DNA from: a virus
Virus record (IMG/VR): IMGVR_UViG_3300034117_001898
Coordinates: 1-22,809 of that record
DNA: 22,809 bases
Reading direction: 5' to 3' (one strand)
The position numbers were made by a program, and so were the translations under genes. Positions 2,344-6,630 of the stretch are shown here, in pieces. How positions within the stretch are numbered: position 1 is the stretch's first letter; each line of letters starts with the position of its first letter. The notes under the pieces are model-generated. The model did not search any database and was not told the origin of the DNA. It saw only the letters and a list, made by a program, of their open reading frames with translations.

Positions 2344-2365
2344 ATAATATCTTAGTTTTTTATTA
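2344..2365 (-). promoter_or_regulatory. Phage promoter-like element for the gene at 2152-2337 and tilS
   Basis: TAATAAAAAACTA (2365-2353), 3 bases, TATTAT (2349-2344), 6 bases, ATG at 2337. The motif is read in frame as the last codons (L-I-K-N-stop) of the homing endonuclease, so that gene ends inside the promoter. Confidence 0.8.
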
Positions 2366-3029
2366 GTTTCCAACCACATTTAGTCTGTAGTTGTCTTCCT
2401 TGTTTTAAATGATTGAATGCACCTATAGATAATCCTGTTTTTTTAGACATATCTGTCAAAGATAATTCCAATGTTTCTAAAGTATACACATTAAACCATT
2501 TAATTTTATTGAGTTCGTTTTTTGTTAAACTCATTTTATTTTTAGAATCTTCTTTGTGTGTATAAGATGGTCTGACATATCCTTTTTGTTTTTTTATCTG
2601 CCAACTTTTTTTAGCCCAAGCACTCCTATTTTCTGTTGTAGCTTTTACCATGTTATTTAAATTTTTATTATTATGCCAATATGTTTTTAAAGATTTTGAT
2701 ATTTTTAATTTAGTTTCTTCTGATGGTATACCACCATTACCACCCTCTGTTAGATTATAACCATTAGGAGAAATAGTATTGTGGTTATTTATATAATAAA
2801 TTTCTTTATCGCAACACTCTTTAATTGAATTACAAGTTTCTAAAACTTCCCAATCAAAGTTATCAATACCATACTTACGTATTGCTTGTTTAAAAAGATA
2901 AAAATAATGTTTATTAGAAGGTGAATTTGCTTTACATAAATGCGCTTTCTTTCTTTCTTCTAAAGTTTTTGTAGTATATCCTATATACTGTTTTCCATTA
3001 ATTTTATTAGTAACCATATATACAATCAT
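2352..3029 (-). CDS. GIY-YIG homing endonuclease
   Basis: Free-standing site-specific endonuclease of 225 residues that would cut an allele lacking it and spread by repair. The GIY-YIG domain begins at the N terminus: VYM (3-5) stands for GIY, YIG is at 15-17, followed by an R/E-rich helix (LEERKKAHL) and EVLETC. A NUMOD3-like segment (EGGNGGIPSEETKLKISKS) lies at about residues 95-115, and the C terminus resembles a NUMOD/HTH DNA-binding repeat (SKKTGLSIGAFNHLKQG). Its start overlaps the stop of a 20-codon leader frame (3026-3088), and the bases just upstream form an 11-bp hairpin that would hide the initiation region. The coding sequence is more AT-rich than tilS, consistent with an inserted element. 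Confidence 0.93.
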   Translation of the reverse strand: MIVYMVTNKINGKQYIGYTTKTLEERKKAHLCKANSPSNKHYFYLFKQAIRKYGIDNFDWEVLETCNSIKECCDKEIYYINNHNTISPNGYNLTEGGNGGIPSEETKLKISKSLKTYWHNNKNLNNMVKATTENRSAWAKKSWQIKKQKGYVRPSYTHKEDSKNKMSLTKNELNKIKWFNVYTLETLELSLTDMSKKTGLSIGAFNHLKQGRQLQTKCGWKLIKN

Positions 3030-3383: not shown

Positions 3384-3459
3384 TGGCTCCAAAGGTTGGG
3401 ATCGAACCAACGACCTAGAAGTTAACAGCTTCCCGCTCGTTCCACTGAGCTACTTTGGA
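3384..3459 (-). tRNA. tRNA-Asn (anticodon GTT)
   Basis: 76 nt with encoded CCA (3386-3384). Acceptor TCCAAAG/CTTTGGA, D stem GCTC/GAGC, anticodon stem GGAAG/CTTCT with loop CTGTTAA (GTT, reads AAC/AAU), T arm GTTGG-TTCGATC-CCAAC, discriminator G as usual for tRNA-Asn. Confidence 0.95.
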
Positions 3460-5312: not shown

Positions 5313-5323
5313 AAAATTATTAA

Positions 5324-5340
5324 CTGTTTTATGAAAACAG
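5324..5340 (-). repeat. Perfect inverted repeat over the stop of the ParB-like gene
   Basis: CTGTTTT and AAAACAG separated by 3 bases (7-bp stem), spanning the last codons and TAA of the gene at 5329-5751. The sequence after it (TTAATAATTTT) is AT-rich but not a clean U-run, so it is at best a weak terminator or an RNA 3'-end stabiliser before the structured RNA. Confidence 0.5.
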
Positions 5341-5751
5341 CCACTGCCAATCTTCTGGCATGTCAGAAATATTTAAAACTTTAGCTTTTATTTTAGTTAT
5401 TTTATTTGTAATTGCTTTTTGAAGTCTGTGATGCCCATCTAAAATTGACTGCTTTCCGTTGTTTTTATTTAAAATTAAAATTGGATAGTCAAGATTAGCT
5501 TTTTGAATATTAGCTAATGTTTCGGGATCAGTTTTAGTTTGGTGAAGAGCTAAAGGCTTAAGACTATCAACATTTATTTCTGATATAGGCATATCCTTAG
5601 AAAAAGCAAACAAATCACTAATAGTTACTTTAACTAATTTACCGTCATTTGTTGTATCTTCCCAACTAGTCTCTTGCCAATTATCACCGTGCATGCTTTC
5701 AATAATCTTACTATATGCTTCACTAAGTAAAATTTGATCTCTGTGTTTCAT
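5329..5751 (-). CDS. ParB/Srx-fold domain protein (140 aa)
   Basis: Residues about 55-125 resemble the ParB N-terminal (ParB/sulfiredoxin) fold: PISEINVDSLKPLALHQTK, then YPILILN, and the signature SILDGHHRLQKAI, equivalent to the family's DGxHRxxA. In this fold the motif binds phosphate or nucleotide; phage members include nucleases and CTPases. There is no HTH partner-binding domain, so this is not a full plasmid-type ParB. The first 35 residues (LLSEAYSKIIESMHGDNW) form a helix of a type often seen in phage proteins. It sits between tRNA-Gly and the large RNA. Confidence 0.75.
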   Translation of the reverse strand: MKHRDQILLSEAYSKIIESMHGDNWQETSWEDTTNDGKLVKVTISDLFAFSKDMPISEINVDSLKPLALHQTKTDPETLANIQKANLDYPILILNKNNGKQSILDGHHRLQKAITNKITKIKAKVLNISDMPEDWQWLFS

Positions 5752-5768
5752 TATTATATTTATTAGAT

Positions 5769-5843
5769 TGGTGCGGGATATCAGAGTTGAACTGATCTCT
5801 CAAGTTTGGAAAACTCACATATTAGCCGATATACGAATCCCGC
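5769..5843 (-). tRNA. tRNA-Gly (anticodon TCC)
   Basis: 75 nt with encoded CCA (5771-5769). Perfect acceptor GCGGGAT/ATCCCGC, anticodon stem TGAGT/ACTTG with loop TTTCCAA (TCC, reads GGA/GGG), T arm ATCAG-TTCAACT-CTGAT. Discriminator A. Its overall sequence resembles bacterial tRNA-Gly(TCC). Confidence 0.95.
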
Positions 5844-5848
5844 GAAAA

Positions 5849-5934
<86 letters not shown>

Positions 5935-5945
5935 AATAATAAAAT

Positions 5946-6544
5946 TGGTGGACGCGAGGAGCATCACACTATGGTTTTCACCACCAGATTTCTCTGTTTG
6001 TGCGCTGGACTATGCCTTTACCTTAGTATTTTTACTTTAGGTAGGTGATTATAGTCTCTACACCTTCTCATTATCTGAGCTTGGCTCGGCATTGGGACGG
6101 ATATTATTCCAGACCGTTCACCGAATTTACACCTTACTAACTATTCGTTTCCAAATAGCAGACCCTCATTAAGTTGAACTCCTGTCCTCTATCAACTTAC
6201 ATTAACCTTCAAACATGCTTATATTGTCTCGTTAAGGTGAGACTTTCCTGTTAGGGACGACCGATTTCTCTGCCATCCTCCACCAATGTATTAGACAGAA
6301 TACATACTGTTTTATTACCTGTTTTGTATCCAAGAGCAGAGCAGGTTTATCTCTTGGCGTATTTGCTTAGGCAGCTAAAGCAAGTTCGCCTTGTGGGGCG
6401 AAAACGCGATTAGCAATACCACGCACAGCGTTAACAATTCTGTTGCCGTTTATGTTTTTTTGATCAGCTTTTTAAGAGGCCAACTGATCAACCTCTACAT
6501 GCTAGTTGAATGCTTATCAATACAGTCGAAACCAGAACGCGCCC
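5946..6544 (-). ncRNA. ssrA: tmRNA (ssrA), interrupted by a group I intron
   Basis: Rescues stalled ribosomes by acting as tRNA-Ala and then mRNA for a degradation tag. The acceptor stem is GGGCGCG (6544-6538) with CGCGTCC (5956-5950), containing the G3-U70 pair read by alanyl-tRNA synthetase, then A and encoded CCA (5948-5946). The conserved 5' TCTGGTTTCGACTG follows. Pseudoknot 1 is clear: GAGG/CCTC interlocked with TTGATCAG/CTGATCAA, including TTGGCCTC and TAAAAAGC as in E. coli. The tag frame runs from GGC at 6447, after an AUAAAC resume signal, to TAA at 6369-6367, encoding GNRIVNAVRG at its start and PQGELALAA at its end. TAAGCATG precedes the T arm AGGAG-TTCAACT, whose 3' strand CTCCT lies about 210 bases further on because of the intron. 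Without the intron the RNA is about 389 nt, a normal length. Confidence 0.95.
5962..6171 (-). ncRNA. Group I intron inserted in the T arm of tmRNA (about 210 nt)
   Basis: Self-splicing ribozyme core without an ORF. Elements in order: P2 hairpin CTATT...AATAG; P3 strand AAGGTG; P4 TTCGG with CCGAG; P5 ACGG with CCGT; the joining sequence AATGCCGAGCCAAG typical of group I; P6a CTCA/TGAG; GTAGA then P7 GACTAT (6056-6051), which pairs with ATAGTC further on; P3' CACC; P8 TACC/GGTA; then two GAAA-capped hairpins, CAGA-GAAA-TCTG and TGGT-GAAA-ACCA, as P9 elements. Boundaries follow the rule of U before and G at the end of the intron and restore a 7-nt T loop: intron 6171-5962, exon TTCAACT joined to CTCCT. 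GAGGGU early in the intron can pair with ACU at the 5' exon end and CUC at the 3' exon. Splicing one loop position earlier remains possible. Confidence 0.88.
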
Positions 6545-6552
6545 GATAAAAT

Positions 6553-6630
6553 TGGTTGCGGGTTTCGGAATTGCACCGAAACTACTTCTGCTTATGAGAC
6601 AGATCCAGCACTACTACTGGTTGACCCGCG
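6553..6630 (-). tRNA. tRNA with anticodon CAT, initiator-like (fMet type)
   Basis: 78 nt with encoded CCA (6555-6553). Acceptor CGCGGGT/ACCCGCA has the C1-A72 mismatch that marks bacterial initiator tRNAs, and its end CGCAACCA is identical to E. coli tRNA-fMet. D stem CCAG/CTGG, anticodon stem TCTGT/GCAGA with loop CTCATAA (CAT, same loop as fMet). T arm TTCGG-TGCAATT-CCGAA with G instead of T55. It lacks the three G-C pairs in the anticodon stem that classical initiators have. It may be an initiator, or a Met or TilS-modified Ile tRNA with an unusual acceptor. It ends 8 bases before the tmRNA. Confidence 0.85.

Follow-up and report, generated by a model that had tools for sequence, protein, structure and literature searches.

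The minus strand of the window, the whole stretch of 22,809 nucleotides of viral DNA that was analysed, carries between positions 6544 and 5946 a phage tmRNA gene split by a 210-nt group I intron (Table 1). The window spans a 22.8-kb IMG/VR virus record, which encodes rIIA, rIIB, ThyX, a DnaB/KaiC-type ATPase, a GIY-YIG endonuclease, and seven tRNAs. The tmRNA gene belongs to a run of RNA genes that is ordered tRNA-Glu, tRNA(CAT), tmRNA, tRNA-Tyr, and tRNA-Gly on the minus strand. The Rfam tmRNA model (RF00023) matches the gene with 78.4 bits, above the cut-off of 47, and the alignment stops where the T arm meets the intron. The gene specifies a tRNA-like domain with a G3-U70 pair, TGGNTTCGAC, and CCA, and the open tag frame that follows pseudoknot 1 (PK1) has a hydrophobic end with Ala-Ala (GNRIVNAVRGIANRVFAPQGELALAA). 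ARAGORN detects no tmRNA in the unspliced window, because the intron interrupts the gene; after removal of the intron in silico, it calls a complete 389-nt tmRNA with the tag GNRIVNAVRGIANRVFAPQGELALAA. A first-pass annotation had listed acceptor strands with G3-U70 and CCA, the sequence block TGGTTTCGAC, pseudoknot 1, a tag frame ending in LALAA, and T-stem strands AGGAG and CTCCT separated by about 210 bases. The acceptor strands and CCA lie where it had placed them, the T-stem strands have the spacing described, and the block, the pseudoknot, and the tag, which ends in ELALAA, are present. The minus strand of the window also contains a gene for a TilS-like PP-loop ATPase (1515-2204, Pfam ATP_bind_3), and the phage encodes CAT-anticodon tRNAs; the two together may provide the phage with its own lysidine-modified tRNA-Ile.

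Table 1. Positions of the interrupted tmRNA gene, its intron helices, and neighbouring tRNA genes in the window, and of sister introns in tRNA genes of related phages.
Feature	Position	Strand	Description	Evidence
Whole interrupted tmRNA gene	5946..6544	-	599 bp; 389 nt once spliced	Rfam RF00023; ARAGORN on in-silico spliced sequence
5' exon	6172..6544	-	5' acceptor strand through T loop	
5' acceptor strand GGGCGCG	6544-6538	-	pairs with CGCGTCC, G3-U70	
PK1	about 6495-6462	-	within 5' exon	
Tag frame including stop	6367..6447	-	GNRIVNAVRGIANRVFAPQGELALAA, resume codon GGC	ARAGORN, spliced sequence
Pseudoknot domain	within 6172..6544	-	within 5' exon	
T-stem 5' strand AGGAG	6183-6179	-		
T loop TTCAACT	6178-6172	-		
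Group I intron	5962..6171	-	210 nt; preceded by U at 6172 (-1U), ends with G at 5962	Rfam model, left-out model, L014 empty site
P2 hairpin	6141..6158	-	GAAA loop	sequence; helix only partly aligned across family
P3 5' strand	6134-6130	-	span of P3 5', P4, P5: 6085..6134	covariation
P4	6125-6120 with 6090-6085	-		covariation
P5	within 6085..6134	-		covariation
P7 GACTAT / ATAGTC	6056-6051 / 6013-6008	-	span 6008..6056	sequence and covariation
P3 3' strand	6047-6043	-	enclosed by P7	
P8	6041-6021	-	enclosed by P7	
P9	6004-6000 with 5969-5965	-	span 5965..6004	covariation, 100% of cells paired
P9.1	5996-5985	-	GAAA-capped	inside P9
P9.2	5983-5972	-	GAAA-capped	inside P9
3' exon	5946..5961	-	T-stem 3' strand, 3' acceptor strand, A73, CCA	
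T-stem 3' strand CTCCT	5961-5957	-		
3' acceptor strand CGCGTCC	5956-5950	-		
A73 and CCA	5949-5946	-		
tRNA (CAT anticodon)	6553..6630	-	just upstream of tmRNA	ARAGORN
tRNA-Tyr	5849..5934	-	just downstream of tmRNA	ARAGORN
Sister intron, L031	1516-1722		tRNA gene; also at this place in the L003 record (138 kb)	
Sister intron, L030	1511-1709		tRNA gene	
Sister intron, L243	808-1008		tRNA gene	

The boundaries of the intron are set by a natural empty site. A search of IMG/VR with the 5' end of the tmRNA returned seven contigs from related phages. The phage relative L014 has the same tmRNA without an intron (88% identity over exon 1), its exons are joined exactly at the equivalent of 6172|5961, and ARAGORN calls this gene a tmRNA, with the tag GNNIVNAVRSFVNRSFAPQGELALAA. 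Therefore, the intron comprises positions 6171-5962, which is identical to the span given in the first-pass annotation and has been obtained independently of it. Group I introns are preceded by a U at position -1 and end with omega-G. The boundaries conform to this rule, and the rejoined exons match the L014 allele. The insertion point is the last, 3'-most position of the T loop, called subsite 8 (AGGAG TTCAACT, intron, CTCCT), and the intron has no reading frame of its own. L243, a more distantly related phage (76%), likewise has an intronless tmRNA.

The conserved P3-P8 core, including P7, and the covarying helices identify the insertion as a group I intron. The Rfam model Intron_gpI (RF00028) aligns to 6187-5982; the match that the first-pass annotation had made its test is significant (E 4.5e-10), but its 43.2 bits fall below the curated gathering score of 50. 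Short phage introns lie near this cut-off, with 47.6 bits for the L031 intron and 68.6 bits for that of L030. A covariance model of 17 other phage tRNA introns, from which the window was left out, recognizes the intron with 150.2 bits (E 2.7e-37). In an 18-row alignment, 37 of 52 pairs show two-sided changes and the covariation score is 0.397, compared with 0.140 for shuffled alignments (0/500) and much lower values in every slid control, some relatedness being left in the score by both types of control. The covariation excess is nevertheless large and distributed across P3-P9. The annotated P7 strands and two GAAA hairpins are indeed P7, P9.1, and P9.2, and a GAAA loop caps P2 as well. By sequence, P1 is formed by CAACU with GGU(C)UG, and P10 by three pairs, GAG with CTC of the 3' exon. 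P1 is short, with the pairs U-G, C-G, and A-U and two more past a bulged C, and on this reading is the weak point of the ribozyme fold. A plain minimum-free-energy fold of the intron (z -2.3) was not relied on, as it is unable to show the P3/P7 pseudoknot. The central claim of the first-pass annotation, a phage tmRNA with its own T-loop group I intron, is supported by the covariance models, the L014 junction, splicing in silico, and covariation. It has been refined by the placement of the intron at subsite 8 and by its relatives, which are mainly phage tRNA introns.

The family to which the intron belongs, as recognized by the model built without it, is widespread in tRNA genes. A scan of IMG/VR with a motif from the P9 region matched at least 119 stretches, of which 85 distinct matches were examined. 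Among the matches listed, nearly all of those outside the window lineage are followed by the 3' half of a tRNA. At least 53 of the examined matches with resolved boundaries interrupt tRNA-Leu(UAA) between U34 and A35, and the other hosts among the matches listed are Asn, Arg, and CAT tRNAs, isotype calls other than Leu, Asn, and CAT being less certain. The IMG/VR loci (L036-L148) delineate a family of group I introns of about 200 nt in phage tRNA genes, mostly tRNA-Leu(UAA). Members are also found in the 735-kb uncultured phages LR756501/LR756503, and crAss-like phage records contain partial matches. The family is common in Bacteroidia tRNA genes as well, with matches in 17 of 395 sampled genomes and in 28 of 299 within one order. 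In the phage group of the window, a CAT tRNA (L031) has a sister intron ahead of its anticodon, and tRNA-Asn(GTT) (L014 and L243) has one that separates the second and third anticodon bases; the tRNA-Asn of the window itself (3384-3459) has no intron, and the record of L012 contains three introns in total. The window intron shares its core and its P9/P9.1/P9.2 layout with the phage and Bacteroidota tRNA introns, most of which measure 194-231 nt, a range that includes its own length. By contrast, it resides in the T loop of a tmRNA rather than in the anticodon loop of a tRNA, and its P1 and P10 are altered to suit the new site.

The similarity of the intron to its potential sources was compared using tmRNA introns from Bacteroidia genomes as yardsticks: L168 and L231 (subsite 3), and L236 (subsite 8), with L168 paired with L198. 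Identity between the window intron and these three yardsticks is 55-58%, whereas the phage tRNA-Leu(UAA) intron L049 reaches 71% on the same model columns and 74% in a global alignment. The phage-tRNA-intron model gives the cellular tmRNA introns 47-58 bits, against 150 for that of the window. In the tree, the window intron groups with L049 (support 92/91), and the three from cellular tmRNA genes make up a separate clade (98/92). Within that clade, the subsite-3 and subsite-8 introns cluster, and one cellular tmRNA intron may have shifted between these subsites. These comparisons suggest that the window intron made a separate hop from the phage/Bacteroidota tRNA-intron family, an origin that is better supported, although not proven. 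The direction of the hop is one that we infer, since closeness to phage tRNA introns does not prove it. The balance leans somewhat towards this being the first known intron-form tmRNA of a phage, founded separately by the jump of a tRNA-Leu(UAA)-type intron to subsite 8, in convergence with Saprospiraceae. Alternatively, the tmRNA might already have contained the intron when it arrived from a Saprospiraceae-type host, in which subsite-8 tmRNA introns occur, and phage tRNA genes would then not be the source. Its subsite is that of the cellular L236 and of the Saprospiraceae genes described in the main text of PMC11915505, and the AU test rejects neither the grouping of the four tmRNA introns in one clade (p 0.344) nor that of the subsite-8 pair (p 0.063). 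However, the similarity values, the model scores, and the separate cellular clade disfavour a common origin with the cellular tmRNA introns, and two phage relatives, L014 and L243, have intronless tmRNAs, which together make arrival from such a host unlikely.

The GIY-YIG gene (2352-3029) was rejected as the specific mobility partner of the intron, as it is also present in L014, whose tmRNA is intronless. A gene resembling HNH endonucleases (PHROGs; L012:2472-3053) directly follows the intron-bearing tmRNA in the sublineage L004/5/6/9/12/13 and could be a free-standing homing endonuclease; it is absent from the window and is therefore not a requirement for the intron. Scans with a P7 pattern found that the group I introns of genomes that reach the Rfam cut-off adjoin 23S rRNA genes, with no tmRNA at the cut-off, and identified three more candidates in viral contigs (L016-L018), of which L016 and L017 have no RNA match. 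L018, from another phage, resembles a tRNA gene interrupted by a group I intron (about 5320-5810, minus strand), and an HNH-like reading frame just upstream seems to contain an in-frame TAG codon.

The phage tmRNA tags are long, with 26-29 residues and a common NAV/NAI...GELALAA pattern (window 6367-6447; L014 3515-3895; L243 5175-5561). Two cellular Bacteroidia tags, read by eye, have nine residues: GNNQFALAA (L198) and GNRQFAMAA (L236). The tag of the window starts with Gly-Asn, as these do, and the intron family is present in Bacteroidia; therefore, there are hints of a Bacteroidota host, which serve as a lead only. Host assignment by rIIA/rIIB similarity yielded only distant matches and was uninformative.

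According to the main text of a survey of tmRNA genes, intron-form tmRNA genes comprise 883 unique sequences, all interrupted in the T loop at one of four subsites (2, 3, 7, and 8), with subsite 8 reported only in Saprospiraceae (PMC11915505). The T-loop introns of bacterial tmRNA mentioned in the first-pass annotation are therefore an established form, and so are phage-encoded tmRNAs, with 79 sequences in the same survey, the main text of which is silent on introns in them. The window intron occupies one of the four subsites and, as described there, shares the T-loop position, -1U, and terminal G of intron-form bacterial tmRNAs (PMC11915505). It is short and without an endonuclease gene, as are most of those introns, but it measures 210 nt compared with a reported mean of 293, is carried by a phage, and resembles phage tRNA introns more closely than it does the three introns compared from cellular tmRNAs. 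Standard phage tmRNAs (the 79 of PMC11915505, by its main text, together with L014 and L243) have the complete tRNA-like domain, PK1, tag, and phage tRNA cluster seen in the window; by contrast, the window gene is interrupted by an intron and missed by ARAGORN. A literature search, in which PMC11915505 was taken on its main text, found no report of an intron-bearing phage tmRNA. The paper on phage pf16, considered as an earlier case, reports no tmRNA in pf16. The window gene combines known parts in a new setting, probably with an origin of its own, and is not a system of a new kind.

The observations are, with high confidence, best explained by a phage tmRNA with a compact T-loop group I intron that belongs to the tRNA-intron family. 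The intron most likely moved into this tmRNA from a tRNA gene of the family found in phages and Bacteroidota, mostly in tRNA-Leu(UAA). The tmRNA is probably co-transcribed with the neighbouring tRNAs, and the compact intron interrupts the gene after the final base of the T loop. The intron is predicted to be self-splicing: the precursor would fold, and the ribozyme would cleave after U6172 with guanosine and ligate U6172 to C5961, which would restore the T stem AGGAG/CTCCT, the loop TTCAACT, and the acceptor stem. Judged from the anatomy of the gene, splicing must precede the use of the tmRNA, because the T arm is unable to form beforehand. The spliced 389-nt tmRNA would work in trans-translation with the alanyl-tRNA synthetase (AlaRS) and SmpB of the host; six phage records, fragments among them, yielded no SmpB gene, and therefore host SmpB would be required.

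It is very unlikely that the intron has decayed and the tmRNA gene is dead. The short P1, the Rfam group I score beneath the cut-off, and the sister phages that manage without the intron are compatible with decay, and splicing itself is a prediction from the sequence. However, every core helix is intact and covarying, and joining the exons yields a complete tmRNA whose tag is open. Moreover, the intron and exons are nearly constant although the spacer just upstream has diverged: two sublineages differ by 0 changes in the 210 intron bases and by 22 substitutions and 3-4 gapped positions in about 357 positions of that spacer. Slimmer still is the prospect, raised as speculation in the first-pass annotation, that splicing is a regulatory switch timing ribosome rescue in infection: tmRNA activity would wait for splicing to form the T arm, but the family occupies many unrelated phage and bacterial tRNA genes, as a neutral mobile element would, and the tmRNA of sister phages is intronless.

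Intron-form phage tmRNAs are likely to be undercounted, because the intron hides the tmRNA of the window from ARAGORN. The intron-plus and intron-minus alleles of sister phages, together with the related introns in tRNA genes of these phages, constitute a natural system for the movement of small introns lacking endonucleases between RNA genes, which also bears on whether phages seed introns into bacterial tRNA and tmRNA genes. If the intron was founded separately in the phage, phages would be vehicles that move such introns between tRNA and tmRNA genes.
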